This document shows, one piece after another, positions 17,048 to 34,652 of a stretch of DNA of 64,000 nt. The notes beneath the pieces were generated by a model. That model did not search any database. It saw nothing but the letters and a program-made list of their open reading frames with translations, and was not told where the DNA came from. The stretch spans positions 2,758,501 to 2,822,500 of the forward strand of contig NZ_CP045875.1 of the NCBI RefSeq assembly GCF_009649955.1, written 5' to 3'. The first letter of the stretch is position 1, and each line of letters opens with the position of its first letter. This DNA is from Heliorestis convoluta (GTDB lineage Bacteria; Bacillota; Desulfitobacteriia; Heliobacteriales; Heliobacteriaceae). A program made the translations under genes and the position numbers.

Positions 17048-17132
17048 GGTGATTCACTCCTTCATACTCTACACGACTACTTCTGTTGCGAAAATATCCT
17101 TTGTTTTCCAATGTTTCAACACTTCTTTCTTC

Positions 17133-17160
17133 ATTATAATGGTTCACTTCTACTTCAAAA
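17133..17160 (-). promoter_or_regulatory. Weak candidate promoter for the csa1-like gene
   Basis: On the minus strand a perfect TATAAT lies 16 bp after TTTTGA, about 85 bp upstream of the start codon. The -35 box is poor. Confidence 0.3.
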
Positions 17161-17184
17161 GGAATCTACTTATCATTCAAAAAA

Positions 17185-18267
17185 CTACATTTCGTGAGAA
17201 TGAGCCAACGTTCTAAACACTTCTATCTCCAAGTCCCCCAAACCAAAGCTTGTCGCTTTCCCCAGATGAATAAGTTGTCCCCAAAGCAAGATAGGCAGAA
17301 GTTCCTCTATCCAATCACTTTCACCTTCTAGAATGAGATAGCCCATCAATCCACCCAGCTTCATCTTTGCATTTTGCCGGCTTGAGTAGCGCTCCCAGTC
17401 TGTCCAAGTATAAGCTTCTTCTCGCAATTGTAGGGCTTCTGCTTTTTTAATATACTTAGCAAAATCAATTTTCCACAGTTGTTCACCGTAATAAGCTGCT
17501 ATCACAGAGAGGCGGCGTAACAGCCCTCGAAAAAGTAAAGTTGCAGAAAGCTTGTCTTGCAAGCGCTTGTCTGCTTTCAATCGAAGCGGTGTCTTAAAGG
17601 TTATTTTGATGAATGTAGTAGCTTCTTTCTTTTTATGAGTACTAGAGTGCGATTGAACAGTAGAAGTAGAGTATTCAAGAAGTTTTTTCACTCTCTCTTT
17701 CACATCTTGTGCCGACAGATACAATTTCGTTGCTAAATTCCACTGACCTCCTTCATAAATAGATTGACTCCCTTTGGTAAAGGGGTTCACCACAGAGGCT
17801 TCTACCACGCGAGCGCTGCGCAATCCTTTGCCAAGTCCTCTTTCTAAAGATCGTGCAAAGGCTGATAGAAGATACGGAGCAAAAGGCATGGCTTTGCCAA
17901 AAAGGGTCATCTCAACTTCAAAAGTTTCATCACGTTGATAATGACTTTTGCCCTGTGTATAAGGCCTCAATACAAAAGGTGCCGGAATTTCTTGCCCTTT
18001 CAGAAAAAGTCCTTTGCGATCATCAGGTACAAGAGGATTGAAAAGCATCGTCACAGGGCAAATCATTTGATAAAAACAACCAGAACAGACTTGAGCCTTT
18101 CCGGCTGTACAAGCAATGTCACGAAGAGCGTGACCTAAGGCGCCACGAAGCGTTGAGCCGGAATAAGCTGGTAAAACCAAACCCTCTGCCCCTGCTGCGA
18201 TAACAATTCGAAAGCGCTGTACCTGTAACTTAGGATGAGGAAAAGCCTTGATAGGATGTGTAACCAT
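17185..18267 (-). CDS. cas6: Cas6 endoribonuclease, PF10040-type (second cas6)
   Basis: A 360-residue RAMP protein that would cut pre-crRNA. The N-terminal block STLRGALGHALRD is followed by a Cys-rich region (CSGCFYQMIC, about residues 62-71). The C-terminus has the glycine-rich IHLGKATSFGLGDLEI loop that identifies the PF10040 Cas6 group seen with type I-A and III systems. The start (18267) follows AAAGGAG by eight bases and overlaps the end of cas5 by 38 bp. It belongs to a different Cas6 subfamily from the cas6d at 26.4 kb, though only one array lies in the window, so the division of labour is open. Confidence 0.8.
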   Translation of the reverse strand: MVTHPIKAFPHPKLQVQRFRIVIAAGAEGLVLPAYSGSTLRGALGHALRDIACTAGKAQVCSGCFYQMICPVTMLFNPLVPDDRKGLFLKGQEIPAPFVLRPYTQGKSHYQRDETFEVEMTLFGKAMPFAPYLLSAFARSLERGLGKGLRSARVVEASVVNPFTKGSQSIYEGGQWNLATKLYLSAQDVKERVKKLLEYSTSTVQSHSSTHKKKEATTFIKITFKTPLRLKADKRLQDKLSATLLFRGLLRRLSVIAAYYGEQLWKIDFAKYIKKAEALQLREEAYTWTDWERYSSRQNAKMKLGGLMGYLILEGESDWIEELLPILLWGQLIHLGKATSFGLGDLEIEVFRTLAHSHEM

Positions 18268-18940
18268 GAGAAGAAACTCCTTTGAAACCTTTCAATACAA
18301 TAGGCTTAAAAATCCTGTCGTTATGAACTTTTTGCCTTGCCGCTGAGTAAGAGTCAAAAGCATCAAATGAAGATGTCGTACCCATATCATCCATCATTTG
18401 AATTACCATGCCTTGTTCTATTACACGATGAAGGTCTTGTTGATTACTCTGAAGTTCCGACAATTCTAGCGAAAAATGTTCAGGCAGTTCTGCTTCTTCC
18501 CACTGCTTTTGATATTGCACAAAGCTTCCTCGTTTGCCAAAATAGTTAATAAACGTCACAAGTCGTTGCAGTCGCTCTTTTTCATAAAGAAGCAGATCCG
18601 AAGTTTCTAAAGCGATGAAAAGCAAGCCCTCCCAGAAAACGTATTGTCGCAAACCTACCGTTGTCTGATAAGACTTTTCGCTTTCTCGAGATTCTTTTAA
18701 GGTTCTGACAAAGCTATTATTCACAATAACAGACTGTGGTAGCTTGAAAGCAATTTTCAAAGGGCGAATCCAGTGAAAATCTTCTTCGCCTTGACCATCC
18801 CAACGAAAAGAAGCATCGATCAGGGCCATTTTTACAGCATAAAAGGTTGGAATAAGATGGCTCTTTCCGCCTGAACTGGTGGAGGAAGAAAGTCGCAGGG
18901 AAAAAAGATTGGAGGCACTATAAGAACTAACCAACCACAT
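18230..18940 (-). CDS. cas5: Cas5 (type I-A-like)
   Basis: A 236-residue RAMP that caps the crRNA 5' handle in Cascade. The N-terminal stretch SSSTSSGGKSHLIPTFYAVK followed by MALIDASFRW is characteristic of Cas5 of DevS/I-A-type modules. I choose ATG 18940 (six bases after GGGAAGTG) over the in-frame GTG at 18949. It sits between cas7 (13 bp upstream) and cas6 (38-bp overlap), the usual tight packing of an effector operon. Confidence 0.72.
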   Translation of the reverse strand: MWLVSSYSASNLFSLRLSSSTSSGGKSHLIPTFYAVKMALIDASFRWDGQGEEDFHWIRPLKIAFKLPQSVIVNNSFVRTLKESRESEKSYQTTVGLRQYVFWEGLLFIALETSDLLLYEKERLQRLVTFINYFGKRGSFVQYQKQWEEAELPEHFSLELSELQSNQQDLHRVIEQGMVIQMMDDMGTTSSFDAFDSYSAARQKVHNDRIFKPIVLKGFKGVSSHGYTSYQGFSSS

Positions 18941-18953
18941 TTCGATCACTTCC

Positions 18954-19892
18954 CTAAAGAGACTCTGCTAGATCTGTTAAAATAGCGACCAATTGAGCAA
19001 GGTTATTGAATTGATTACAATGCACCTTGTTGCCTGGCCAGCGATTCAGTTGTTCAGCGACGGCGATTATTTCCTGCTCATAAGTATCTTTCAACGGAGA
19101 AAGGGTAGGCGCTGGTGTCATATTGGTCGACGTGGTGACAACACCGTTGATAGAAAGCAGATGAGGATGGTCTGTGCTTTTGTGAGCACCATTTATACTT
19201 ATTAACATATGAATAATGCTTCTGATCATAGCGATTTGACGTTTTTTCCGCTCTTCATCGTCAATGACATATTGACGTACGCCATCATGATAACCAACAC
19301 GGTTTAATTCTACGTGCATAACCAAGGCATAGACACCAGAATTGCTAGGTCGATAGAAAAGGATAGGGCCTCTGTTACCGTTATTTTCAGCATTTGCTGT
19401 AGCAGTGTCAAACTTTACATGTAAGTGCGACTCTGTCGTTGTCCGCTCCGGAATACCCAAAAGCCAACCGAATTCAACGACTGACTTCCGTGCAACAGAA
19501 CGCCTCCCTTCCGTAATTAAGACGCCAGCAAGGTCATCGACGGTACAATAAGGAATTACTTCATTTAATATTTGAATGTTATTTTTGCTATCTATTTTCT
19601 CTATAGACTTTAAAAAAGGGCGATCTACATTAATTCGATTGGCGTTGCCCTTATTACAGCCCGCACAAAGAGGCAGGCCCGTTTCTTTGGCGATTGAGAT
19701 AAGGCTTTCCGTCTGAATATGCTTGAGCATATCACCACTGATAGCGTTTGTTTCTCTGATCTCTCCAAACTGATCCACGATATGAACCATGCGTGCTTTT
19801 ACGTAATTTCCTTCTGTGCCTTCGTTATTTAAGCAATGCATGTCTAATGTTACTTGTGCAGAAAGAGAAAAGGATTTAATGTCATTCTTCAT
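18954..19892 (-). CDS. cas7: Cas7 (Csa2/DevR family) crRNA-backbone subunit
   Basis: A 312-residue RAMP of the Cas7/Csa2/DevR family, which forms the helical backbone of Cascade along the crRNA. The N-terminus LSAQVTLDMHCLNNEGTEGN and the following ETNAISGDMLKHIQ block are family signatures. A CAGCNKGN segment (about 97-104) is a local variation. ATG follows AAAGGGTGACC. It lies 18 bp after cas8a and just before cas5. Confidence 0.8.
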   Translation of the reverse strand: MKNDIKSFSLSAQVTLDMHCLNNEGTEGNYVKARMVHIVDQFGEIRETNAISGDMLKHIQTESLISIAKETGLPLCAGCNKGNANRINVDRPFLKSIEKIDSKNNIQILNEVIPYCTVDDLAGVLITEGRRSVARKSVVEFGWLLGIPERTTTESHLHVKFDTATANAENNGNRGPILFYRPSNSGVYALVMHVELNRVGYHDGVRQYVIDDEERKKRQIAMIRSIIHMLISINGAHKSTDHPHLLSINGVVTTSTNMTPAPTLSPLKDTYEQEIIAVAEQLNRWPGNKVHCNQFNNLAQLVAILTDLAESL

Positions 19893-19910
19893 GATTGGTC
19901 ACCCTTTTTA

Positions 19911-21638
19911 TCAACCCTCTTTTTTTGCTGATCCGTAAGCTATTAAAAGCACAATCACAGGTTCTGACCCAAAATCATCGATCAAGTGAATGAGTTGGGT
20001 TATTTCTTGATCTGTAATGCTGGGGCGTCGCATGATTTCTTCATCTCTAAAGGAATCTGGGCTTCTGGCAATTATTTCTGTTATCCTTGCATTTTCAAAG
20101 TTATAAGCACTGATGAAATCACTAAGACGCGCTATGGCATCTTTTTTGGATCCCGCTTTACGTTTCAAATCAGTCAATAGCGTATAGTGCACTTCATAGT
20201 ATGGCCTTGGCTTTCGATCTTGTTGTCGCGCTCTACGATATTGTTCTGAGACAGTAGCTCTTCGTATGGCATTGGCAACAGCTTGAAACCCAGGATTGTT
20301 AATAATATCACTGTATCTTCTGTTCAATGATATCACCAGCTTTGATAATAATTCTTCACGCAGTCTTTCTAATATTTTTTTAGAATCTCTCGACATTTCA
20401 TGAAATACAAAAATTCCGTAAGCAACGGCAAAGTGCAATAGAGTGATGCTTTTGCCTGTAGACAGAAAATCTCTATACTGAAAAAGCAGCTCCGCTTCTT
20501 CTAGTCTTTCTTCTCGTAACCTTTCAAGAATGCTTCTATGTTCTCTTGCGATCTGGAGCCACAATTCTTTATCTTGAAGCGTTTCTATAGAAAACCAGGT
20601 GGGTAAGCCTATGGTACTTACGTTGAGTAACCCTTTGCCGGTGCCTAAGCTTTTGAAGTAAGCAGTTGACAAAGCCGCTATATATTGTTGGGGACTCTTA
20701 TGTTGCTTTTCTACGCCTACGTCTAAGCTAGAAAAAAGATCTTTCACAATTTCACTTGTCATAGCGAGGCTATTTTGTATGTCGATCTGACAAGATGACT
20801 TTTGGTAATGTGGAATTCTAGTAAAGTGATGGCTTAATTGATCAAGTTCTTCTAAAGTTACATTGGCAGGCACTAGGACTGTAATTTTAATATCATCATG
20901 AATGTTATAGGCATTGGCGATACGATGAATTGCTATGTATCGTAGATATTCTGTGAACCAGTCAACGTAGGCAGAAGGCACTGTTGCCAATCCTGTACCT
21001 TTGGGCTTGCTGCGGTTAAATCCCTTGCCTACAATCGGATTAAGAGCTTGTACTGCTGCAAGAGAAGGCGAAAAAACTTTATGCTTTCTCTTTGTATCTT
21101 CTTGCCCTCTGGAAAAGCCTGTTTCTACGTTGTTACCGATTGATGTTATAGTGTATCGTTGCACGTTGGCCTTTATTGTTTCACGAAAAGATTGTGGTTC
21201 AACCTGAGATAATTCATGCAACAATCTGTTATGGCTGTGAAAAGCTTGCATGATGTAGAGGTTTTTGAGTAAGCTATGCTTTGGGTGAGGTTCCAATATA
21301 TTTTCTTGTCTTAGGCAGGTCTTTTTTGCATTTTCCCAGTACCTCTTCTCCTTCTCTCTTTCTTTTTCATAGTCATAAAAGAGGTACCCTTCTGGCACTG
21401 TATGATCTTTGCTCGTCTTAAAGTAGGGATAGCCTGGTGCAGCTTGTAATCTATCGAAGTGCCAACTATCAAGGGCCTTCGCCTTCCGTAGTGTAATTTG
21501 ATAACAATCTCCTATATTCTTAATTCTTTCTACATTCTTAGGCATTAAAATGTCTAGCAAATAGGCAAGCCCAACTGCCTCTAGAGCATCTGCGTAAGTA
21601 CCTGTTTTATGAGAAACGTAAAAGTACTGGTTCTCCAA
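19911..21638 (-). CDS. Cas8a-like large subunit
   Basis: A 575-residue protein at the head of the I-A-like operon, in the position and size of Cas8a. It is rich in helices, and the N-terminal KTGTYADALEAVGLAYLL resembles the start of Cas8a1/Csx13-type large subunits, which recognise the PAM and recruit Cas3. I recognise it by context and N-terminus rather than by a catalytic motif. The TTG start (21638) follows GGAAGTG. No csa5 small subunit, cas3' helicase or cas3'' HD nuclease follows, so this effector has no nuclease of its own in the window. Confidence 0.65.
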   Translation of the reverse strand: MENQYFYVSHKTGTYADALEAVGLAYLLDILMPKNVERIKNIGDCYQITLRKAKALDSWHFDRLQAAPGYPYFKTSKDHTVPEGYLFYDYEKEREKEKRYWENAKKTCLRQENILEPHPKHSLLKNLYIMQAFHSHNRLLHELSQVEPQSFRETIKANVQRYTITSIGNNVETGFSRGQEDTKRKHKVFSPSLAAVQALNPIVGKGFNRSKPKGTGLATVPSAYVDWFTEYLRYIAIHRIANAYNIHDDIKITVLVPANVTLEELDQLSHHFTRIPHYQKSSCQIDIQNSLAMTSEIVKDLFSSLDVGVEKQHKSPQQYIAALSTAYFKSLGTGKGLLNVSTIGLPTWFSIETLQDKELWLQIAREHRSILERLREERLEEAELLFQYRDFLSTGKSITLLHFAVAYGIFVFHEMSRDSKKILERLREELLSKLVISLNRRYSDIINNPGFQAVANAIRRATVSEQYRRARQQDRKPRPYYEVHYTLLTDLKRKAGSKKDAIARLSDFISAYNFENARITEIIARSPDSFRDEEIMRRPSITDQEITQLIHLIDDFGSEPVIVLLIAYGSAKKEG

Positions 21639-22114: not shown

Positions 22115-24261
22115 GTTTCAATTCCGCAAGCGGAATAACCTTCATTGGAGCGCAATGGCATCCAATGAGTAACGCAAGGACGATTAGTTTCAATTCCGCA
22201 AGCGGAATAACCTTCATTGGAGCTCAATCGACTAGCTGAAACACCGATGTCCTTAGAGTTTCAATTCCGCAAGCGGAATAACCTTCATTGGAGCTCTGCC
22301 TTCCAAATTGGAACGCCTCGGCTCTCGTCTCGTTTCAATTCCGCAAGCGGAATAACCTTCATTGGAGCCGCAATGGCGCCGTCTACCTCACCACCTGCGG
22401 CAATGTTTCAATTCCGCAAGCGGAATAACCTTCATTGGAGCTTTGAGTACATCAGAAAATTCAAGATGTTGGAAAAAGAGGTTTCAATTCCGCAAGCGGA
22501 ATAACCTTCATTGGAGCGGACAAGGTAACACTATCAATCGATTCATAATCAAAGTTTCAATTCCGCAAGCGGAATAACCTTCATTGGAGCTGGTAGTTGT
22601 TCGGGAGTGAAGTGCAATAGGGGTGAGTTTCAATTCCGCAAGCGGAATAACCTTCATTGGAGCAGGTGAAAATCCATGCTACCGGTACCCGTGAGCCTTG
22701 TTTCAATTCCGCAAGCGGAATAACCTTCATTGGAGCTCAACCTGACCGTGTGATGCCGTAGCCGGTTTACGAGTTTCAATTCCGCAAGCGGAATAACCTT
22801 CATTGGAGCTCAACCTGACCGTGTGATGCCGTAGCCGGTTTACGAGTTTCAATTCCGCAAGCGGAATAACCTTCATTGGAGCAAGTCGAAGTATGCGCCG
22901 AGCTGCTAGAGATCATTGTTTCAATTCCGCAAGCGGAATAACCTTCATTGGAGCCTTGAGGCTGTAGGAGCAATGGAATCGCTCGGTGTGTTTCAATTCC
23001 GCAAGCGGAATAACCTTCATTGGAGCCTTGAGGCTGTAGGAGCAATGGAATCGCTCGGTGTGTTTCAATTCCGCAAGCGGAATAACCTTCATTGGAGCCA
23101 AGCTCTAGTTGACTGACATAGAAGAGATAATCCGGTTTCAATTCCGCAAGCGGAATAACCTTCATTGGAGCAGGTAGGCATGGCATGATTAGCTTCATGG
23201 TCAAAGTTTCAATTCCGCAAGCGGAATAACCTTCATTGGAGCTGCGATATATGCAAGGAGAAGTGCAAATGATAGATAGTTTCAATTCCGCAAGCGGAAT
23301 AACCTTCATTGGAGCTCTAACGCTTTCAATATCCTAGACTGTTCTGCTTTGTTTCAATTCCGCAAGCGGAATAACCTTCATTGGAGCCAAAGATAAATTC
23401 CGTGTCGTTCTTGAAAATCAAGTTTCAATTCCGCAAGCGGAATAACCTTCATTGGAGCGTAATTGATAAACTCTTTAGGATAGCGACAAAGAGAAGTTTC
23501 AATTCCGCAAGCGGAATAACCTTCATTGGAGCAAAGCCTGCACCCATAATGCAGCCTAGCAAAGCTAGTTTCAATTCCGCAAGCGGAATAACCTTCATTG
23601 GAGCGTTTTATGTATTCGTGTGATATTGGCAGCATATCGGTTTCAATTCCGCAAGCGGAATAACCTTCATTGGAGCTCAACTTTCACTCTTTCGCCTCCA
23701 ACTGTTTCTTAATGTTTCAATTCCGCAAGCGGAATAACCTTCATTGGAGCCTGTACTTGCTTATCGCTGTATGGAGACTTGTCCAAGTTTCAATTCCGCA
23801 AGCGGAATAACCTTCATTGGAGCAGAGCGAGAGTGGAAAGCAAAGTGGAAAACTAACTACGTTTCAATTCCGCAAGCGGAATAACCTTCATTGGAGCCGT
23901 GATATAATCTTATATGCGTGATACTCATTTAGGTTTCAATTCCGCAAGCGGAATAACCTTCATTGGAGCGCAAGCGCTGATAAGGATCTAGTCATCGCCA
24001 AGAAAGTTTCAATTCCGCAAGCGGAATAACCTTCATTGGAGCTAAAGAAATCGTGTTCTGCATTGTATCTAATTTCAAGTTTCAATTCCGCAAGCGGAAT
24101 AACCTTCATTGGAGCTTATCAATGGTGTAAACACGTCTAATATATCATCATTGTTTCAATTCCGCAAGCGGAATAACCTTCATTGGAGCTAGCACTTGAT
24201 GGTCGTGTAACAGTTTGGAGTTTTGTTTCAATTCCGCAAGCGGAATAACCTTCATTGGAGC
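22115..24261 (-). CRISPR. CRISPR array, 30 repeats of 37 bp, 29 spacers
   Basis: Thirty identical 37-bp repeats start at 22115, 22187, 22258 and onward to 24225, with spacers of 34-39 bp. On the transcribed (minus) strand the repeat begins GCTCCAATGAAGG and ends GCGGAATTGAAAC. It contains the hairpin ATTCCG-CTTG-CGGAAT and gives the standard ATTGAAAC 5' handle, so the leader is at the high-coordinate end beside cas2. No degenerate terminal repeat is present. Two spacers are tandemly duplicated (22737-22772 = 22810-22845; 22955-22989 = 23027-23061). I could match no spacer to the window. Confidence 0.98.
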
Positions 24262-24338
24262 TCCCCTTTGTAGAAACACTGATACTACAGGCCTATTCTT
24301 CACTTTTCCGAGAGGGTCTTTATCTGAAGCGATATATA

Positions 24339-24468: not shown

Positions 24469-24750
24469 TTAAATGATAAACACACTTTCATCTCTCGGCT
24501 GAGTGCCTCCAATGCGATCAATTTTTTCTTTACAATCGTCGCAGAGCGTATAAAAACGAATGCTATCTTCTTGATAATTGATAATCTTGTCCAATCGATT
24601 CCTTAGTTTCAAATATTGCTCTTTCGTAAGATTGCATTCAAATACACTATATTGCATCCATTCTCCATAGGACTTTAATGCTTTAAGTACTTTTCCACGT
24701 CGTTTGTCGTTCGGAATATCGTAGGATACTACGATAAGCAATTTCGTCAT
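24469..24750 (-). CDS. cas2: Cas2 adaptation protein
   Basis: A 93-residue ferredoxin-fold protein that forms the Cas1-Cas2 integrase. The N-terminal strand with the conserved Asp reads LLIVVSYDIPNDKRRGKV (residues 4-21), and length is typical. ATG follows AAGGTGGG. It is the last gene of the I-D operon, before the leader; it lies 30 bp beyond the restored cas1 stop. Confidence 0.92.
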   Translation of the reverse strand: MTKLLIVVSYDIPNDKRRGKVLKALKSYGEWMQYSVFECNLTKEQYLKLRNRLDKIINYQEDSIRFYTLCDDCKEKIDRIGGTQPRDESVFII

Positions 24751-24780
24751 CCCACCTTTTTATTCCTTCCTTGGTTAACT

Positions 24781-25777
24781 TTATTTTGCTCTGAAAGGTA
24801 TATATTTTTCTGTTTCTCCTGTTATCCATTTTGCTAAAATTCTTCCTTGCAGTTCAAAACATCGACTATAGGTAATCTTATAGTTAAAGATTGGATGATT
24901 GACTGCTGTGTTTTTTCTTTCTTCAAATTTTCGGTAAAACTCTTTTTTTTACACTATCTTTCAGTGAACAAACACCAAGATCGATATCAAAGTCTTTTTC
25001 AGTAATCATATTGTTGTTAATCATGCTAATCACAACAGAGTCTACAATGATTGTTCTAAATTCTTCCACTAGATCCAAAGCAAGCGATGCACGTCCATAT
25101 CGATCACCGTGAAGAAAACCTATATAAGGGTCAAGGCCAACAATCGCTAAAGCGCTTTGTATGTTATGGGTTAACAAAGTATAACCTAATCCAAGCAAAG
25201 CATTCACTGGATCAGTGGGTGGACGTCGAATACGTTTTGCAAAACCAAAATCATTTTTCAAGATTTCAGGGAACACCTGAAAATAGATAGCAGCTGCATT
25301 TCCTTCATATCCTCTGATCTCATCAAGTGTTTCTACACGGTTCAATCCTTTTTTGGTCTTTTTGATGCTTTGAATTGCTTCTGAAAGTTTTTTGTGTGGA
25401 GAAGCACGATGTTGGCGGGCCAAGAACGTGATCTGATTGTTGATTTTTCCATTTATAATTCTTTTGGCTACTTCTACCCTTGCTTTTGGATCTTGATAGA
25501 TTTTATGTTGTGCGATGCGAAGCAAACCATTTCTAGAGTCGGGCGCTTCATATCTCCCTAAGTAATTTCCATATTGGGAAAGAAAGCAAATATTTATTTT
25601 TCTCTCCATTAGTTCTGCCACTGTTGGGGCTGTTACTGTGACATTTCCAACGATAACGATCTGATCTATTTTTATAATAGGAACGTCTATTAGAACATCT
25701 TTTTCTAATGTTACTACCAGTCGTTCATCTGTTTTTCGTAAAGTAGAGCGTTGCTCTGTGATATAAAGTGTACTCAT
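24781..25777 (-). pseudogene. cas1: Cas1 integrase, C-terminus displaced by a single-base frameshift
   Basis: The open frame (25777 to 24923, 284 aa) holds the integrase core. Catalytic Glu is in RGYEGNAA, and the conserved His, Asp and Glu lie in GFLHGDRYGR and LALDLVEEFR. At a run of eight A (24950-24943) the frame shifts. Dropping one A restores VKKEFYRKFEERKN and 48 more typical Cas1 residues to a TAA at 24781-24783, total 331 aa, the normal length. The truncated protein lacks the C-terminal helix. Possibilities are real inactivation, transcriptional slippage on the A8 run, or an assembly error. It overlaps nothing and lies 2 bp after cas4. Confidence 0.88.
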
Positions 25778-25779
25778 TT

Positions 25780-26388
25780 TTAACCCTCCTTTGCCTTGCT
25801 TTCTTCCTGCACTGCCTTACGTATCATAGTAACTTCTCGAGGTAAACATCTTTCTATCAAGCTACATCCTGAACATCGAGGTCCATACTTCTGCACAGGT
25901 CTTTCTGCTGTTATAAACATTTGTTGAACTGCTTGAATTACTTCTTGGGTTTTAAGTCTTAGTTCTTGATCAAAGGTAACTTGTAGACGTAGCCGCGAGC
26001 CAAAATAATAAAGAAAACCATATTCTATTCTTTTGTCTAACATGTATTCTAAAGCTAGTGCTTGTGCACAGAGTTGGACTTCATCGTTTTGCCATTTACC
26101 ACGACGACCTTTTTTATACTCTACAGGATACGTTAAATTCCCTTTTTCCTCTACCAAATCACTTTTCCCGATTATTCCCAGCTCTTCATGGTATAATTTT
26201 ACTGCTCGGTGCTTTAAAATACCTTCTCTACCTAGAATGCCAGGCATATCTACATTTTGATGTAGAAAAGTACCCGTTAATGTATGTTCATTATCAATGT
26301 ATTCACCACAAATGTACTCTAGATAACAACGAAAAGGACAATATGAATAGGCATTGAGTGCCGATATTGGTACAATGATGGGTTCCAC
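25780..26388 (-). CDS. cas4: Cas4 exonuclease
   Basis: A 202-residue RecB-family nuclease that trims prespacers and selects the PAM end. The iron-sulfur cysteines are Cys in SYCPFRCYLEY (N-terminal) and CSGCSLIERC (about residues 172-181). The RecB E-x-K motif is in PVEYKKGRR (about 90). GTG start after AAAGGGAGGTG. It is intact, unlike the csa1-like paralogue at 16.1 kb. It sits directly upstream of cas1. Confidence 0.92.
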   Translation of the reverse strand: MEPIIVPISALNAYSYCPFRCYLEYICGEYIDNEHTLTGTFLHQNVDMPGILGREGILKHRAVKLYHEELGIIGKSDLVEEKGNLTYPVEYKKGRRGKWQNDEVQLCAQALALEYMLDKRIEYGFLYYFGSRLRLQVTFDQELRLKTQEVIQAVQQMFITAERPVQKYGPRCSGCSLIERCLPREVTMIRKAVQEESKAKEG

Positions 26389-26437: not shown

Positions 26438-27307
26438 CTATGGTTTTCTTTGTACTTTTATCGTTTGCCCCAAACCCATGGTACTTTTATAGCCACAACC
26501 AGCAAATTGGCCAAACCGTACTAAAAGATCGAAGAGATATCGCATATGTGCTGGAAAACGGTGCCAGTCTAGCCGTATCCAACCTACTGAGCCTTTGATC
26601 ATATACTTTCCATAATCAATTGTAACTGTTTTTAAGTTGTAATCTGATATGGCTACTTCTTGGTTGATTTTGTCTAGCAATGAAGCTTCGTGAGGGTTCT
26701 TTGGTGATTCCATAGCTTCTCTTTGTCCTAGAAGCAAATGTGTTGGGGCAAAGTTTTCCCATTTTAATAGCCAGCTTTTGAACATAAGCTCGGGATCGGG
26801 AAAAGGGTAGTTAATGTTACCGCGTCGAAAAGACAGTGGCGTTACAATACGAATTTCACAACCATTGCTGGCGACTGCTTCATTAAGTAATTGTTCATAT
26901 GTTGTCGTTTGGCACCATCTATCTGTATCGTTGAAAGTCGCTTGCCAGGTGCGCAGCATGACTTGGTTTTTGCCTAACGTAATTAGAGGATTGCTCGACT
27001 CTGTGAAATTTTGGGTATAATAAAGCAAACTTTTGTTAAATGCTTCTGCGACTTTACGATCTAAGAAGGTAATGCGAACTGTGTACTCCTGTCCTTGTCT
27101 CAAAATCGTTGGTTTGTTTGTACTTAGTAGTTCTGGTGTCAAACCGATTGTGAACGGTTTGACACCAGAAACATTGTGAAGTTCTGTTGCCAGAGCAGGA
27201 TCGTTTTGAGCAATCATTTGCAGTAGTACAGCATGCCAGTGACGAGCCATCTGGTTAGCTGGTTCCGTTTTCTGAGGTATAAAGGTTAGTTTACCGGCAA
27301 CAAGCAT
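26438..27307 (-). CDS. cas6: Cas6d pre-crRNA endoribonuclease (type I-D)
   Basis: A 289-residue two-ferredoxin-fold RAMP. The C-terminal glycine-rich loop FAGCGYKSTMGLGQ is the Cas6 signature. It cuts at the base of the repeat hairpin and leaves the ATTGAAAC handle. The start is 4 bp beyond the csc1 stop, with AAAAGGAGTTAA upstream. It is the natural processor for this array; a second Cas6 of another subfamily is encoded at 17.2 kb. Confidence 0.9.
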   Translation of the reverse strand: MLVAGKLTFIPQKTEPANQMARHWHAVLLQMIAQNDPALATELHNVSGVKPFTIGLTPELLSTNKPTILRQGQEYTVRITFLDRKVAEAFNKSLLYYTQNFTESSNPLITLGKNQVMLRTWQATFNDTDRWCQTTTYEQLLNEAVASNGCEIRIVTPLSFRRGNINYPFPDPELMFKSWLLKWENFAPTHLLLGQREAMESPKNPHEASLLDKINQEVAISDYNLKTVTIDYGKYMIKGSVGWIRLDWHRFPAHMRYLFDLLVRFGQFAGCGYKSTMGLGQTIKVQRKP

Positions 27308-27310
27308 GAC

Positions 27311-28015
27311 TTAACTCCTTTTGTTTCTTTTATTTACCTTTTTCTTGGTTGTTTTTTCTTCAGGAAACTTATAACGCATCCCAGCAGGCAATAGGATTTC
27401 TTCACCTGTTCCTTTGAGTTTGTAATAGTCTGTTTCTAGATGAGCATCTGTGACGAGAGAAACAGGTGGCATGTTCAATAGATTAAACATACTAGGTTGT
27501 TGAGGCAAGTCTAATACATTTAATGGATGGGCCGAAACGAATTTTCCATTTTTTTGTTCGTACTCTATTTCTTCTGCTATTACTTCTACTTTGCTCATCC
27601 ATTTCCCCAAACGGATCCATTGAGGCCACGTAGTTCGTGCTTTGGTAAAAGCATAACTTATGAATCGAGATTCTGGTCCAATTTCCCGACATTGTCCGTA
27701 ACTGGGGATGTTAACGGATAGTTGTTCCGATTGTAATCGATAACGAACATCGGCAAGTTTAAAGGTATAGGATGCAAAGCTAACTTGAAGCGGTTTTGCT
27801 GGTGTTAGGTAGATACCTTGCTCATTTAGAGGTTCTAAGTGTTCTTGATAACGTGGTACATGATCTGGTTGATGATAGCTGCTAGCTGCAAGTCCAAAGG
27901 CATATGTTAATGCATAGTTGTGCAAATAAGCATCGGTTACGTAGACACGACCGAATTCCCGGGTAGCAAAAAACAGTGGTTCTGCTGTTATTAACTCCAG
28001 GCGATAGATGGGCAC
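27311..28015 (-). CDS. csc1: Csc1 (Cas5d-equivalent of type I-D)
   Basis: 234 residues. The N-terminus YRLELITAEPLFFATREFGR and the later TDAYLHNYALTYAFGL block are hallmark Csc1, the Cas5-family RAMP that holds the crRNA 5' handle in the I-D complex. GTG start after AGGTGGTG. The lysine-rich C-terminus (KTTKKKVNKRNKRS) is probably flexible. It lies 38 bp after csc2. Confidence 0.9.
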   Translation of the reverse strand: MPIYRLELITAEPLFFATREFGRVYVTDAYLHNYALTYAFGLAASSYHQPDHVPRYQEHLEPLNEQGIYLTPAKPLQVSFASYTFKLADVRYRLQSEQLSVNIPSYGQCREIGPESRFISYAFTKARTTWPQWIRLGKWMSKVEVIAEEIEYEQKNGKFVSAHPLNVLDLPQQPSMFNLLNMPPVSLVTDAHLETDYYKLKGTGEEILLPAGMRYKFPEEKTTKKKVNKRNKRS

Positions 28016-28053: not shown

Positions 28054-29034
28054 TCACTTCTTCTTACCTTTTTTCACGCCGATTTCCGCTCGAGTGCAAT
28101 ACTCTTTCATCTCTTTGTCTAAATCTTTCAAAAAGGCTCCTTGCTTCTCTCGATCTTCTAGTGTTTTTTGCAGTTCTATCATGACTTCTTCTAGTTGTGA
28201 TCCTTCTACTTTTTCATATATGACATTGCTGTTTTGGAGCAGCTTTTGCGTTGCTTCTGCTGTGGCTTTAGTCACTTGATCCCAAGCTAAGAGAGCGGGC
28301 AATTCTATATCTTTTTCTTGGTCTTTTGTTAGCTCATCATAGATGGCCTGGGTTAAACGTAAATTACTGAAAATCTCACCATCAGCGAAAACAATGGCCA
28401 TAATACGATTTTCTACAACGCCTGTACGTGTCGTTTGAGCCCCGTAGCGCTTGGTACGACGAATGTTGTTGAGCAGGTAAGCCAATCCTAACGCGGTTGG
28501 ATCACGCAATGTTACAACGGTAGGAAAGTAGGTTTCGGGCTTTACATGATCTTGTTCACTAAATCGACTTGTGGTTTCTCCTTTTTTGGTCATGGTTCCA
28601 TGTTCGTAGGGTGCGTTTAAGGTAAAGGTTTCATGGGATTGATCATAAGCGCTGATAGAGAAAGCCGTGTCCGCATAGACTTTGGACTTTTCTGCACCGG
28701 AGTCTCCAATAGCATAGCCGTAGAGTATGCAATCAGGGCAAGTGCAACAAAATGATACATTGTAGTCACATTCTTCACCGATTATTGCATGGGCACGCAA
28801 TAGTTCTCGTCCTGTGAGCCTTTCTGCTGTTGTCTGCTTTCGTTTGAAAATGGCAATACGAGCCATTGGTTTCCCTTTCTCTATACCTGCGTTAACGATG
28901 GCTGTATTTAAGGCGCCATCTGTCTGAAACACTGCGTAAGAGTCGGTACGACGCAATACGAGCAGGTGGGCATATTTACCGCTCGGAATTAGCGGCAACT
29001 GGCTATGGAAGTGCTTTTCGTAATTTTTAAACAT
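28054..29034 (-). CDS. csc2: Csc2 (Cas7d backbone subunit of type I-D)
   Basis: 326 residues of the Csc2 family, which polymerises on the crRNA. Conserved blocks include HAIIGEECDYNVSFCCTCPD (zinc-type cysteines, about 80-99), GAEKSKVYADTAFSI and DPTALGLAYLLNNIRRT. Start after AGGAGGACAAGC. It comes just after the separate small-subunit gene. Confidence 0.92.
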   Translation of the reverse strand: MFKNYEKHFHSQLPLIPSGKYAHLLVLRRTDSYAVFQTDGALNTAIVNAGIEKGKPMARIAIFKRKQTTAERLTGRELLRAHAIIGEECDYNVSFCCTCPDCILYGYAIGDSGAEKSKVYADTAFSISAYDQSHETFTLNAPYEHGTMTKKGETTSRFSEQDHVKPETYFPTVVTLRDPTALGLAYLLNNIRRTKRYGAQTTRTGVVENRIMAIVFADGEIFSNLRLTQAIYDELTKDQEKDIELPALLAWDQVTKATAEATQKLLQNSNVIYEKVEGSQLEEVMIELQKTLEDREKQGAFLKDLDKEMKEYCTRAEIGVKKGKKK

Positions 29035-29065: not shown

Positions 29066-29515
29066 TTACTCTTGCGGTGCAGCCTTTTCTGTATCGGTAT
29101 CCTGGCTTTTGGAGCGATAAGCGTAAGTTTTGATGTAGTAGGCTTCGCAACCGTTTTTGAGTCGATTGAGGTACTTGCGCAATAGGGCTCGGCTGCCTTT
29201 GCTGTAGTCATCGAATACTTCTTCTAAGAAGAGCTGGACAAATTGTTCCACCGCTTCTCTTTGCGCTGCTGGTTCTTTGTAAAGAGGCAGCCAACCAGAG
29301 GCACTGTCATGGTCATTGCGCACTCGATCCAAAAAAGCATTGATCTCCCCTTGTGCTATTAAGGATAAGCTTTCACGATCTGTGTGGGCTGGCGCTTTGA
29401 GTAAACAATCTGCTACGATGCTCAAAGGACGCAGTCTTGCGTAAGCTGAATCTTTACGGGCTCCTGAACGATAAAAAGAAGCGTAACTGTCTACCACCCT
29501 TGTAATCATGGCCAT
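29066..29515 (-). CDS. Cas11d small subunit encoded as a separate gene
   Basis: A 149-residue helical protein corresponding to the C-terminal part of Cas10d, which in studied type I-D systems is produced by internal translation of cas10d as Cas11d. Here it has its own reading frame. ATG 29515 lies ten bases after GGGAGG inside the last codons of cas10d, and its ATGGCCATGA spans the cas10d stop (TGA 29508-29506). Earlier in-frame ATG 29533 lacks a ribosome binding site. The charged tail (SKSQDTDTEKAAPQE) is probably flexible. Confidence 0.7.
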   Translation of the reverse strand: MAMITRVVDSYASFYRSGARKDSAYARLRPLSIVADCLLKAPAHTDRESLSLIAQGEINAFLDRVRNDHDSASGWLPLYKEPAAQREAVEQFVQLFLEEVFDDYSKGSRALLRKYLNRLKNGCEAYYIKTYAYRSKSQDTDTEKAAPQE

Positions 29516-32202
29516 TTTATTTTTCCCTCCCATCTCAGGATCTCTTCATAATATGTTGTAATGCGTTCGTAGGCTTTTAAGAGTCTTTCAGCCATCGTTG
29601 TGTTCATACCCCGTGTTGTGGTTACATTCCCGCCACCGCGCTGGTTGGTTGCAATTCGGTCGGCATAATAGAAAATGATAAGAGGATCCGATTCTACAGC
29701 TCTGCAGATGCTATTTAACTGATTCCAGACAGGAAAATTTCTGCTATCACGATAGGCGTCGGAAGTTATTTCATATAGTGCCATGGCTCCGTCAAAAGCT
29801 AGGGATAGTTCATCGAGTCGAAATACACTTTTTGCCATACCATGTTGCCAGAAAGAATGGGGTGAATCTAATAGAACTGTTTCTCTGAATTCCGTCCCAC
29901 TACGGTAGACAGGGATGGGGGAGCGACTGGCATAGACTTTGACGCCTAGCAGTACGGGTGTGAATAAGGCTAGTAAGACTGGCATACTCCAGCGCTCCGT
30001 ATCGGTTGGATCTCTTCCCATATAAGGAATACCGACCATATGGTATCCATGTCGCTCCCCCATTGAATAGGCGATCTTTTTTATGGAGCGATTATCTTCA
30101 GGCTTTGTAAGCTTAAAGATATCATGGTTGCATAGTTTTTTAAGTTGACCATGGCTTTGCTCGTAAGGTTTTCTAAGTTCGCTAAAGGTAACATTGTGCA
30201 ATTTATTGTATATCTGAGAAATGGCTCGCGCTGTAATTGGGGTAAAGAAGTAGGCTGGATATAGATGCAGAAATACGGCGTCATCTTGTTCTTTGATTGT
30301 GCTGTTCATGCCTGTGCGTCGTAACAAATTCTCTGTTTGGCAAAGGTCGCAAATACCGCGCCCTGATGGGACTTTCCAACCCACGATTTTTTTGTTTGTA
30401 AATATGGAGAATTCTTCAACGTTAGAGAAGGGGCTATTACAAATTGCACATACTCTTTTACCACTACGCAAAGCCTTGTTTTTAGTGTATAACTCTAGTT
30501 CGTTTTCAAAGTCCCATTGATTTTTCTGATCGACTACTTTTCCACTTTCTACGGTAAGTACATTTGATAAGTAAGGCTCTAAAAAAGCAAAAGGCGGTTT
30601 CGTCTCTGGTACGCCACATTCTTCTAAAACATCTTTGTATGCTTTGTTCAAAATCTCTTCTGTTTGTTCAGGGCTAAGACCAGGGTTCTTTTTTGCATAG
30701 TGTCCAGCAACGTAAAACCAGGGATAGCCTACCCCGCCGGTGTAAGGAATGGCTTTCCAATAGGGAAGATGCTTTTCCATCTCTAAAGCACGGACTAGTT
30801 TTTCTCCATAGATTTGATAGTTATTGCTTTTTCCTGTATAGTAATGGGCTAATAATTTGGATAAGGCAAAGCATCCTTCTGCCAAACGATCTGCTATGAG
30901 TGAGGCGGGAAAGTTCAAATCTAGAACGAGACCACTGTCTTGGGCAAGTACCATCTTTTCTTTGCGTTGCTCTGTTACGGGTGTCTTTTTCTCTGAAATC
31001 ACTTGCATTACACGACTGCTCATGACTTGACCTGCTAATTCGGGTGGAAGTAATTCTACAAAAGAAGTGGGAAATTTAAATCCAATGCCAGCACGACTAA
31101 TCAGTGACCCAGCTTGTCCTTTTAACTTATCTAGTAGCTCTTGGCGTATACTTTGAGCCAAATTGTCTATGACAGGTTCTTTGCCTTCTTGTGGTACTAG
31201 ATAAGTAACGCCTTCTGCGAAAAAGAGAAAAGGTTTCCACTTGGCTTTGATCGCTTCTTGGATGACATGGTTGTGAATGATTTGAGTAAGCCGTCCTCGG
31301 TTTTCTGATGTCTTATGATAGGCAACTCGATAGCGACCTTGAAGCAATCGGCGTAATAGATCTAGAATTTTTCTGCTTTTTGCGGTTAATAAATCTTCCG
31401 GTCTGCTTACAAGGGCAGGTGTTGCTAATAAATCGGCCAAACGAACGAATTCGCTTAGATCTTCTAGTAAATCCGATGACGTTTTCAGCTCTTTATAGTT
31501 TGCTAAGGTACGGTTTTCACCGCGTTTTGCTTCGGCATTTTGAGCAAGAAAAGCTACATCGTATTGATAGCTGCGATCTAGGAACTGCCAGATATTTAAC
31601 TTCTCAGCCCATTTTTCTAAGGCTGTTACGTAGTCTTCACTATTTTCACTGTCTAATCGTAGATCTTGGCCTTCCATTTTGTTTAAGTCATGGAGGGCAT
31701 AGCCAACGAGAAATAGACGTTGTTCTTCTTCTGAAAGATTGCAAAGTTTTACTATCACCCAGGTTGCCATGGTTCCATTGAGTATATGGGTAAGTAAACT
31801 TTGATCGGCTAGATGCACAAGTTTGTCGATCCTTGCTTGCAATGTCTTGTCTACATCTTTTTGGCTTTCTATGTTGAGCAATGTGAGAGCCTTACGATGA
31901 CTCATTCCTTTGGCATTCACATCGGATAATTGTTCGATTAGGGAAGGTAAAATCGTGCCTATCCATTCTCTTAGGATTCGATCTCCTGGTTCCGTTGATT
32001 TGTAGAGAAAGTGTGCCAGTGGTGGCATCTCCTCTGGTTCTTTTTCATCTTCTTCTAAAAAATCATAATCAAGCACTGCATACATTTCATTTTCTTCTTC
32101 TGAATCTACCATATCTAACTGCAACTGAACTTCTTCTCCCTTTATCAACTCCTTTGCTTCTGAGCTACCGCTTCTGTTCTTCGTAGACTTATTATGACTC
32201 AT
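29506..32202 (-). CDS. csc3: Cas10d (Csc3) large subunit with HD nuclease domain
   Basis: 898 residues from ATG 32202, eight bases after AGGAGG (the GTG at 32211 lies in that site). The N-terminal HD nuclease carries HD in LVGYALHDLNKMEG (about residues 165-178), and in type I-D this supplies the nuclease that Cas3' lacks. A central zinc-binding pair, VCAICNSPF and ICDLCQTE (about 600-640), precedes the divergent palm domain, which lacks GGDD, so no cyclic oligoadenylate synthesis is expected. The usual C-terminal small-subunit segment is split off into the next gene. Confidence 0.9.
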   Translation of the reverse strand: MSHNKSTKNRSGSSEAKELIKGEEVQLQLDMVDSEEENEMYAVLDYDFLEEDEKEPEEMPPLAHFLYKSTEPGDRILREWIGTILPSLIEQLSDVNAKGMSHRKALTLLNIESQKDVDKTLQARIDKLVHLADQSLLTHILNGTMATWVIVKLCNLSEEEQRLFLVGYALHDLNKMEGQDLRLDSENSEDYVTALEKWAEKLNIWQFLDRSYQYDVAFLAQNAEAKRGENRTLANYKELKTSSDLLEDLSEFVRLADLLATPALVSRPEDLLTAKSRKILDLLRRLLQGRYRVAYHKTSENRGRLTQIIHNHVIQEAIKAKWKPFLFFAEGVTYLVPQEGKEPVIDNLAQSIRQELLDKLKGQAGSLISRAGIGFKFPTSFVELLPPELAGQVMSSRVMQVISEKKTPVTEQRKEKMVLAQDSGLVLDLNFPASLIADRLAEGCFALSKLLAHYYTGKSNNYQIYGEKLVRALEMEKHLPYWKAIPYTGGVGYPWFYVAGHYAKKNPGLSPEQTEEILNKAYKDVLEECGVPETKPPFAFLEPYLSNVLTVESGKVVDQKNQWDFENELELYTKNKALRSGKRVCAICNSPFSNVEEFSIFTNKKIVGWKVPSGRGICDLCQTENLLRRTGMNSTIKEQDDAVFLHLYPAYFFTPITARAISQIYNKLHNVTFSELRKPYEQSHGQLKKLCNHDIFKLTKPEDNRSIKKIAYSMGERHGYHMVGIPYMGRDPTDTERWSMPVLLALFTPVLLGVKVYASRSPIPVYRSGTEFRETVLLDSPHSFWQHGMAKSVFRLDELSLAFDGAMALYEITSDAYRDSRNFPVWNQLNSICRAVESDPLIIFYYADRIATNQRGGGNVTTTRGMNTTMAERLLKAYERITTYYEEILRWEGKIKWP

Positions 32203-32232
32203 CTTACTCACCTCCTCATGAAATAAACACTT

Positions 32233-34314
32233 TTAGGTGATAAACACCTCATTCGTTTTCCGCCAAAACATGATGGAATCAAGCATTAGAGCATCTTTGC
32301 CGAACGAAACAGGGTAGATACCGTTGTAATCACGTACCGCATGGAGTTCAAAAAAAGGCGGCAAGGCCCAGCGCCGTCGCACTTGTGTTACATCTAAGAT
32401 AGAATCTAGTACGCAAGTGCAAAAATATTGACGTTCTACTTTTTTGTTAATGGTGAATATTTCGGGATGTCTTGCTTCTAGGAAAAAACCTTTTCGTCGG
32501 CAAGCTGTATTGAGTAGTTCTTTTTCAGTGATTAGCTCGTCGTTGTAACGCAATGCCACTTCCAATTTTTGATCAAGATATCCTTCTATGACTGCATAGA
32601 GCTTGATGGCTGGCTTTCTCCAGGGTTCTCCCATTTTTTCTGCTATTTTCTGTGCTTGGTCTTCCTCGATAAATGTAAGGTGACAAATGGAGAGCAATCG
32701 TGGTAAAGACATGGTGCCAACTCTTTTTGATTCTTTTTCATAGACCCATACATCCCACAAGCCAGCACCACGAAGAGCTAGTAGTTCTTTGATTACTTCG
32801 ATTTGCTTTTCTTTCTGCAAGTGGATGTAGTGCCCCCAGTTGTTTTTTTGGGTGTTGAATACAACTCGACTTAAAGGCTTTAGATTATCTAGAAGTTCTT
32901 GATAGTGCCTACGGCCATGCTTTTCTAACTGAGCAATCTGGTGAATTGAACGAACGCTTCCCCAGCGACTTACATAGTTTCGAAATTCATTGTGTGGTCG
33001 ATAAACCTCTTCTCGAATCCAAGAGAAAAAGGTTTGTCGATCGATTTTCTCTCCCTCAATCTCTTTTTCTTCTAGTCTTTCTACAAGATAAGAAGGCATA
33101 AGAGCGATGGCCAAATAGGTTGCAAAGCCGCTGTGTCGTCCCAGCCTACCGAGCCTTTGAATGAACGTTCCTGCATCCATCGATTCAAACAAAAGAAAGT
33201 TAATCTTAAAGTCCACGCCTACATCGACTGTGGATGTAGCAATAATCAAATCAGCATTCCAAGAAGCTTTCGCTTTTTCTTTTCCTGTTAATCCTGTGTT
33301 TTCGCCAATAGAGATAGTGCCTTGTAGTTGTTCTTTTAAGTAACTATAAAGTCGCTTGGCTGTATAAACAGAGTTGCAGATAATAAGACCTTTGCTTTCA
33401 GGATAATTTTGAAAAAAAGATGTGATTTCGTCGATATGTTCTTTAACCCAGTCCAAGAGATCGCCCGCACTTTGATCATGTTTGGCGAGCTTTAGTTTTA
33501 CGGGTGCTAATATACGCCGATAGTGATTGCTATCTATGGTGTCATCACCGTGGCAATACTCACCCTCTACTTCAGCACATTGAAACCCTGCTGCTTCGAG
33601 GCCTTGTAGGAGCAACTGATGGGGCGTGGCAGAAAGAAATAGAAACTTTGTGCCATGCTGATGTCCATGACTTGCTCGGATCATAAGCATGGCTTGTAAG
33701 ACTTCCACGATCTGCGGTGTTTGGAATATGTGAAATTCATCAAATACGATGTATTTGAATCGATTGGCAAATCGTTGTGCCATGGCTGCTACATTGTGCT
33801 CTGGTGAACGATAGGCAAAGTTCATAATAAGAGAAAACAAATCGGGGTTGGTAAATAGAAGATTTTTTCGATGAATAAGATCTAATATCGCTTCAAACTT
33901 TCTGGTCTCTTCTAAGCTTGCATATTCGTTGATACGTCGAGCGTTGAGCATTTCCATAAAAAAATTACGCCCTGGGTCATAGCCGAATAATCGATAATAA
34001 CCAGGGTTTGTTAAGTCATCATCCATAGCTTGTCGGTATTGATCTCGCAATAGTTCGTTGGTGGGATAAGCAAAACTTCCAGACCCGATCGGTTTAGCAG
34101 GATAAGGTCGTAATAAAGGCAGGTGTGCCGCCAAACTTTTTCCGTCTCCAGTCATAGCTGTGTTAAATACAACATCTACATCGGAACTATGTAACAATTG
34201 ATACGTTCTCAGTTGGTGTGAAGATAGTTTCCACTTTTCCGGTAGGTCAAAGGGTGCTTTCTCCTCTGTTAATTTTGACCAGAGTGATTCTAAATAAACT
34301 TCTAAACTAAACAC
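32233..34314 (-). CDS. cas3: Cas3' helicase (type I-D)
   Basis: A 693-residue superfamily-2 helicase without an HD domain, as expected in type I-D. Walker A is TAMTGDGKS (52-60), the DExH box is VFDEFHIF (about 192-199), motif III is FLFLSATPHQL, and motif VI is QRLGRLGRHSG. It unwinds DNA for Cas10d cleavage. The only in-frame start is GTG 34314; GGGGG lies immediately next to it, too close for normal Shine-Dalgarno pairing, so translation initiation may be weak. First gene of the I-D operon. Confidence 0.9.
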   Translation of the reverse strand: MFSLEVYLESLWSKLTEEKAPFDLPEKWKLSSHQLRTYQLLHSSDVDVVFNTAMTGDGKSLAAHLPLLRPYPAKPIGSGSFAYPTNELLRDQYRQAMDDDLTNPGYYRLFGYDPGRNFFMEMLNARRINEYASLEETRKFEAILDLIHRKNLLFTNPDLFSLIMNFAYRSPEHNVAAMAQRFANRFKYIVFDEFHIFQTPQIVEVLQAMLMIRASHGHQHGTKFLFLSATPHQLLLQGLEAAGFQCAEVEGEYCHGDDTIDSNHYRRILAPVKLKLAKHDQSAGDLLDWVKEHIDEITSFFQNYPESKGLIICNSVYTAKRLYSYLKEQLQGTISIGENTGLTGKEKAKASWNADLIIATSTVDVGVDFKINFLLFESMDAGTFIQRLGRLGRHSGFATYLAIALMPSYLVERLEEKEIEGEKIDRQTFFSWIREEVYRPHNEFRNYVSRWGSVRSIHQIAQLEKHGRRHYQELLDNLKPLSRVVFNTQKNNWGHYIHLQKEKQIEVIKELLALRGAGLWDVWVYEKESKRVGTMSLPRLLSICHLTFIEEDQAQKIAEKMGEPWRKPAIKLYAVIEGYLDQKLEVALRYNDELITEKELLNTACRRKGFFLEARHPEIFTINKKVERQYFCTCVLDSILDVTQVRRRWALPPFFELHAVRDYNGIYPVSFGKDALMLDSIMFWRKTNEVFIT

Positions 34315-34351
34315 CCCCTAGAACCAATCATGTTATTGTTTCCACTATTTC

Positions 34352-34380
34352 ATTTTAGTGTCTACAAGTTTCCATGTCAA
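34352..34380 (-). promoter_or_regulatory. Sigma-A promoter of the type I-D cas operon
   Basis: TTGACA (34380-34375), 17-bp spacer, TAAAAT (34357-34352); start predicted near 34345, about 30 nt before cas3. The arms CACTA/TAGTG (34343-34360) flank the -10 box. Confidence 0.85.
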
Positions 34381-34385
34381 CTTTT

Positions 34386-34412
34386 GTATTTATTTAATTC
34401 CATATTTCACAC
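34386..34412 (-). promoter_or_regulatory. Partial protospacer with GTG PAM upstream of the cas3 -35 box
   Basis: On the minus strand PAM-position GTG (34412-34410) is followed by 24 bp (34409-34386) that match 18 of 24 positions of the pseudo-spacer at 34562-34585. The site ends 5 bp before the -35 hexamer. Bound effector would block polymerase access. Confidence 0.7.
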
Positions 34413-34475: not shown

Positions 34476-34504
34476 TTGAAGAATTATTTAGGCAATGTTA
34501 AAAT
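34476..34504 (+). promoter_or_regulatory. Promoter of the crRNA-like RNA
   Basis: TTGAAG (34476-34481), 17-bp spacer, TAAAAT (34499-34504), pointing away from cas3; start near 34511. Confidence 0.6.
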
Positions 34505-34510
34505 TTATTG

Positions 34511-34652
34511 ATTGGGCTTTCGGTTTTTTCTTGAATTTATTTCTTTATAAGGAATTGAAAATGAATAATGGAGTTAAAATTATACTTTTATTCCTCTTGA
34601 GGATTCTTCAGAAAAAAAGATGACCAAGCAATTTCTTGTTGGTCATCTTTTC
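34511..34652 (+). ncRNA. CreR-like crRNA-resembling regulatory RNA (mini-array with two degenerate repeats)
   Basis: Pseudo-repeat 1 (about 34531-34561) keeps the hairpin (ATTTCTT-TAT-AAGGAAT, 34539-34555) and the handle ATTGAAAA. Its GGAATTGAAA is identical to the array repeat. Pseudo-repeat 2 (34588-34605) reads TTATTCCTCTTGAGGATT: it keeps TTATTCC, CTTG and GGA of the array repeat and swaps one G-C stem pair for T-A, a compensatory change. Between them is a 26-nt pseudo-spacer (34562-34587). A promoter precedes and a terminator follows. The pseudo-spacer partly matches the cas3 promoter. I infer an autoregulatory guide for the I-D complex; transcription is not shown. Confidence 0.7.
34614..34652. 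terminator. Bidirectional terminator (guide RNA and opuC operon)
   Basis: AAAAGATGACCAA pairs with TTGGTCATCTTTT (13 bp); A- and T-runs on both sides. It ends the plus-strand small RNA and, on the minus strand, opuCC. Confidence 0.85.

Follow-up and report, generated by a model that had tools for sequence, protein, structure and literature searches.

A degenerate mini-CRISPR beside the type I-D cas operon of Heliorestis convoluta as a probable Cas-regulating guide

The natural single guide of Cas9, tracr-L, reportedly represses its own operon (Workman et al. 2021). Shmakov et al. (NAR 2023) reportedly catalogued crRNA-like regulatory elements, mostly in type I broadly and in V-A, among them stand-alone repeats and mini-arrays that partly match cas promoters. 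The cas-regulating RNAs called CreR appear in passages of two reviews that cite Liu et al. 2023 (PMC13131331, PMC12737573), where CreR is defined as a mini-CRISPR that has a cas promoter as its target and no toxin. Autorepression by CreR has been reported in types I-B, I-E and V-A (PMC13131331). In the creA genes, the first degenerate repeat, psi-R1, retains the 5' handle and the second, psi-R2, retains the stem, and CreA of haloarchaeal type I-B requires pairing of the seed at positions 1–5 and 7–11 (PMC8501985).

The genome of Heliorestis convoluta consists of a single contig of 3.2 Mb, of which we analysed a stretch of 64 kb, called here the window, whose numbering is used for all its coordinates. 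The minus strand of the window carries a complete type I-D operon, and profile matches identified all of the core genes cas3', cas10d, csc2 and csc1. The operon begins with cas3', which encodes the type I-D helicase (32233–34314, TIGR03158, E 3.7e-71), and continues on the same strand with cas10d/csc3 (29506–32211, TIGR03174), csc2 (cas7d; 28054–29034, TIGR03157), csc1 (cas5d; 27311–28015, TIGR03159), cas6 (26438–27307, TIGR01877, below the cut-off), and cas4, cas1d and cas2 (24469–26388). The cas10d gene is split, and the C-terminal part of Csc3 is encoded by a separate minus-strand reading frame that overlaps it (29066–29533, matching positions 818–944 of TIGR03174 below the cut-off) and that is probably Cas11d. 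A reading frame of about 200 residues is found in the same place in several Bacillota I-D loci. The CRISPR array, also on the minus strand, contains thirty units with the repeat GCTCCAATGAAGGTTATTCCGCTTGCGGAATTGAAAC (22115–24262), and two of its spacers are each duplicated in neighbouring units (22694–23070). Just past the array lies a second, I-A-like effector operon (16100–21638, minus strand), which encodes Csa1/Cas4-like, Cas6 and Cas7/Csa2 proteins together with two reading frames of 239 and 575 residues, and which may share the thirty-unit I-D array. Type I-D cas3 was found neither in the nine genomes of the family or order nor in the other 82 of the class.

The element described here is divergent from cas3 and lies ahead of an ABC-transporter operon. 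It starts with a predicted sigma-70-type promoter on the plus strand, TTGAAG-17-TAAAAT with TG before the -10 box (34476–34504), which scored 9/12 in a consensus scan, a score that does not imply use. Downstream on the same strand, psi-R1 (34539–34561) is composed of a weak hairpin (34539–34555) and the 5' handle ATTGAAAA (34554–34561); its handle agrees with that of the array, ATTGAAAC, at seven of eight positions, and its last 12 nucleotides at ten of twelve. The guide, or pseudo-spacer, occupies 34562–34587 and is followed by the core of psi-R2 (34588–34605), whose stem-loop TTATTCCTCTTGAGGATT agrees with the array repeat at 15 of 18 positions and contains a compensatory change of a G-C to a T-A pair (TTCCT-CTTG-AGGA). 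Apart from matches at 22115 and 22187, which are the array's own last units, the psi-R2 core is the best match to the array repeat in the 64-kb window. In 200 control repeats with permuted letters, no place in the 64 kb combined a handle scoring 7/8 or better with a following stem scoring 15/18 or better. The element ends in a long hairpin followed by a T run (34613–34652, plus strand), which is a probable terminator according to its minimum free energy structure. The hairpin is flanked by A/T on both sides and may work in two directions, also serving the ABC-transporter operon on the opposite strand. A search of Rfam gave no match.

The small-RNA promoter, the two degenerate repeats with their orientations, the array repeat, the type I-D genes and the compensatory change in the second repeat had been named in a preliminary description of this DNA, and all of them are as given there. 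Its 7-bp hairpin and handle in psi-R1 are both present, but the hairpin is weak (-2.9 kcal/mol in a local fold), and the terminator that it proposed has the hairpin and T run but was not flagged by a strict terminator scan. A helix formed with an upstream U tract (-7.4 kcal/mol) competes with the psi-R1 hairpin and is preferred when the transcript is folded in silico. The handle region of psi-R1 can pair with the small RNA's leader (UUUCGGUUUUUU, within 34511–34561), which might hide the handle from Cas6. The distance from handle to stem is 26 nucleotides in the element versus about 49 in the array; the guide-to-stem distances in the other candidate loci described below are 21 to 47 nucleotides.

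The first 24 nucleotides of the guide agree at 18 positions with a protospacer-like site upstream of cas3 (34409–34386, minus strand), with mismatches at positions 5, 6, 12, 18, 19 and 20. This site is the best match to the guide on both strands of the 64 kb, and the runner-up agrees at 16 positions. The GTG beside the target (34410–34412, minus strand) fits GTN, the interference PAM of type I-D (PMC10212523). Five base pairs separate the end of the target from the -35 box of the predicted cas3 promoter, a nearly perfect TTGACA-17-TAAAAT (34352–34380, minus strand), the -35 box being downstream of the target. The preliminary description had reported the match, its mismatches, the GTG and the 5-bp spacing, and each was recovered. 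No toxin gene was found between the target and cas3, and only cas3 lies downstream of the target. In 5000 dinucleotide shuffles of the AT-rich intergenic region (26% G+C), a match of at least 18 arose 23 times when no PAM was required and once when a GT PAM was required (about 2e-4), figures that include a small selection effect, because the guide length of 24 nucleotides was chosen in the preliminary description. The controls for guide and repeat matches covered the 64-kb window.

The preliminary description had proposed a search of other I-D loci for paired degenerate repeats, and such pairs do recur. We scanned about 90 type I-D loci, of which nine came from the same phylum, 75 from a scan of genome contigs with a Csc2 alignment (with a few duplicates), and eight from plasmids of cyanobacteria and Chlorohelix. 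The array repeats were extracted for each locus, and degenerate repeats were then sought outside the arrays. Repeat pairs were selected by repeat features alone, which called for a first repeat and a strong second one, matching at 14/18 or better. A guide match was counted if at least nine of ten seed bases paired with a site that adjoined the expected motif and lay no more than 2.5 kb away. Among loci with known repeats, such a match, next to a PAM and near the cas operon, was present for nine of eleven degenerate repeat pairs; it occurred at 15 of 305 psi-R1-like sites whose second repeat was weak and for 2.2% of shuffled guides. A separate scan, which required only a handle and a seed match, gave nine matches with a GT PAM, where permuted handles gave 1.25 on average. 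Its results partly coincide with those of the repeat-pair scan, and a small number of the single matches may be due to chance.

All scans combined yielded eighteen guide/target pairs, which come from Poribacteria (loci L034, L042, L043, L045 and L095), Chloroflexota (L047, L065, L067, L072 and L099), Bacillota (the window, L080, L091, L085 and, tentatively, L021) and cyanobacteria (L097, L101 and L103). The pair in L021 is tentative, with a match of 13/24 and no second repeat shown. Sequences in L095 that were initially taken for CRISPR arrays were dropped as other repeats. Where a promoter could be called, the targets are located at cas promoters: the target starts 10–11 bp after the -10 box in four poribacterial homologues, ends 6 bp before the -35 box in L065 and overlaps the promoter in L080. 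The PAM is GT in thirteen pairs, GCT in one, and CC in the four Bacillota loci other than the window, whose repeats end in CTGAAAG or similar. The CCN that precedes the targets in these four loci (L080:6530, L091:6414, L085:6314 and L021:11948) suggests that the Bacillota lineage with CTGAAAG-type repeats uses a different PAM, CCN rather than GTN.

Two cyanobacterial loci (L097:7888–7976 and L101:2294–2425) have the repeat unit not ahead of the operon but between cas3 and cas10d, antisense to both genes. The two repeat copies in Anabaena sp. 90 (L101) are clear and lie about 108 bp from each other; the one at 2294 has no convincing target. On plasmid pAQ4 of the laboratory strain Picosynechococcus PCC 7002 (L103:6167–6313), a handle-bearing degenerate repeat precedes a guide that agrees at 16 of 24 positions with a GTG-flanked site upstream of cas3; a second repeat was looked for in this locus, and none was found. 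The single degenerate repeats of Stanieria (L100) and of Gloeothece (L104) lack a convincing target, and no element was found in Synechocystis 6803 (L102) or Pseudanabaena (L098).

The pairs share a pattern of free positions. Position statistics were calculated from 15 non-redundant pairs among the 18. At guide positions 6 and 12, 10 of 30 cells match, versus 47 of 60 at positions 13–16 (Fisher p = 5e-5), and matching falls off after about position 17–18. Positions 1–5 and 7–11 match largely by design of the search, whereas position 6 and those from 12 onward were free in the handle and seed scan. The pattern at 6 and 12 is what a type I guide with every sixth base flipped out would leave. The preliminary description had assigned mismatches 6, 12 and 18 of the window guide to such flipped-out bases, and the statistics bear this out for the first two. 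According to one review, the flipped-out bases of type I-D are every sixth one, "starting at position one" (PMC10212523); this statement depends on the numbering and disagrees with 6 and 12, which the pattern of the eighteen pairs favours. In Poribacteria, guide and target change together in L043, L045 and L095 at position 4, where L095 has T in place of A, and at position 7 (G or A), and position 6 is free and does not follow this co-change. Selection therefore maintains the pairing. The window is an exception at position 5, which is paired in 17 of the 18 pairs, partly by construction of the search. Nine of its ten seed bases pair, so that the full 1–5 and 7–11 pairing of CreA is lacking, whereas in the other I-D loci the seed is mostly 10/10; the ten-of-ten rule derives from CreA of haloarchaeal type I-B and is not an established criterion for a CreR of type I-D.

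The mismatch at seed position 5, the weak hairpin of the degraded psi-R1 and the short 26-nucleotide distance from handle to stem weigh against a working guide, and the first two would suit a dying or dead mini-array, in which two repeat remnants and a spacer with an accidental match to its own genome drift neutrally, with no present regulation. However, the psi-R2 stem was kept by a compensatory change and the psi-R1 handle was kept as well, I-D operons of several phyla have a unit of this layout next to them, with co-change of guide and target, and a match just upstream of a -35 box is not expected to survive neutral decay. We consider such decay improbable, and the other alternatives more so. 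One of these accepts a real Cas-regulating guide and has it loaded by the I-A-like effector rather than by the I-D Cascade. The I-A-like operon adjoins the same array and contains Cas7/Csa2, and since it has its own Cas6, the RNA might in principle be taken up by this other Cascade. The PAM is nevertheless GTN, that of I-D, and the same layout occurs elsewhere, with no second effector operon in the annotated stretches of L097, L099, L101 and L103; loading by the I-A-like effector is thus very unlikely.

We give still less credence to an antitoxin guide of the CreA kind, which would repress a toxin (CreT or CreP) that is deadly to cells losing the CRISPR system. Its anatomy would be the same, that of two-repeat creA genes (PMC8501985), and a nine-codon reading frame (ATG ATT GGT TCT AGG GGG TGT TTA GTT TAG), spotted by eye at 34315–34328 on the minus strand, overlaps the cas3 leader and GTG start in another frame. 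The target is, however, at the cas3 promoter with no intervening toxin gene, rather than at a toxin promoter as in CreTA, and the other loci also have targets upstream of the cas operon, where a small reading frame sometimes comes first. Least credible is a reading without a guide, in which guide and target are an inverted operator pair for a protein regulator between the divergent promoters, and the resemblance to repeats is due to chance. The match begins exactly at the end of the handle and at the GTN PAM, such coincidence of handle, stem and match was rare in the controls, and in other loci the two sites are direct, not inverted, with the same register of handle and PAM. These observations oppose an operator pair, even though guide and target are mutually inverted across the divergent intergenic region of the window and a divergent WYL regulator gene precedes related cyanobacterial I-D operons.

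The two-repeat anatomy of creA, a target in the cas promoter and the absence of a toxin together correspond to the definition of CreR in the reviews, and we therefore judge that the element is a Cas-regulating mini-CRISPR, or CreR, belonging to the type I-D system beside it, an assignment that we regard as highly probable from its sequence. As in CreR, two diverged copies of the cognate repeat lie outside the array near cas genes (7/8 in the handle, 15/18 in the core), no toxin accompanies them, and the guide has limited complementarity, next to the right PAM, to the cognate cas promoter, with predicted autorepression through the cognate effector. The difference is that the predicted effector here is type I-D, with its GTN PAM and Cas10d. 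What the sequence shows is the anatomy, the PAM, the geometry of the promoters and the recurrence, with co-change of guide and target, in other loci. The proposal of the preliminary description withstood every sequence test run and is made much stronger by the recurrence across phyla. With CreA of CreTA (PMC8501985, PMC9458426), the element shares the two diverged repeats, the partial pairing of the seed with a promoter and the skipped position 6, but it lacks a toxin gene, has the cas3 promoter as target and carries the extra mismatch at position 5 of its seed. In its proposed effector-guided autorepression of its own operon it resembles tracr-L, and it differs in that tracr-L belongs to type II and is a long-form tracrRNA, not a mini-array.

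A mechanism can be proposed, in which transcription, processing by Cas6, binding by Cascade and repression of cas3 are what we infer. The element's own promoter would drive transcription in the direction leading away from cas3, and cleavage of both degenerate repeats by Cas6 would release a short crRNA-like RNA with the handle ATTGAAAA, a guide of about 24–26 nucleotides and a 3' stem; the predicted small RNA begins ATTGAAAA-UGAAUAAUGG. After loading into the Csc1–Csc2–Cas10d Cascade, the RNA would direct it to the GTG-flanked site upstream of the cas3 -35 box, pairing over approximately the first 17 nucleotides and skipping the flipped-out bases. The incomplete pairing would allow binding and a block of RNA polymerase, with no cleavage by Cas3' or Cas10d. 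The resulting negative feedback would be relieved when crRNAs from the array or anti-CRISPRs titrate the Cascade.

The kind of element is known, and the I-D variant, its breadth and the pattern at 6 and 12 appear to be new, with priority unconfirmed. The literature searched names types I-B, I-E and V-A as those tested and describes no CreR for I-D; the surveys of Shmakov 2023 and Liu 2023 lay outside its reach. The mini-arrays with partial cas-promoter matches in the former resemble the element, and if I-D is included there, the claim for I-D is not new.

A decayed CRISPR unit that partly matches the promoter of its own operon, with similar units in other phyla, indicates that type I-D systems very probably down-regulate themselves by means of their own machinery. 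On a joint reading of all loci, which we consider likely, type I-D broadly represses its own cas operon by mini-CRISPR guides in at least four phyla, with pairing over about 17 nucleotides and bases 6 and 12 free; the Bacillota lineage with ACTGAAAG-type repeats uses CCN, not GTN, and in lineages like that of the window the guide occupies the place of the WYL protein repressor of cyanobacterial I-D operons. If true, the eighteen pairs predict which guide bases are important, the motif of Bacillota I-D systems (CCN) and where to look in each locus, and I-D genome-editing tools would inherit or lose this control. RNA-guided self-repression would then reach the type I/III hybrid subtype I-D, the large subunit of which is the nuclease-bearing Cas10d.
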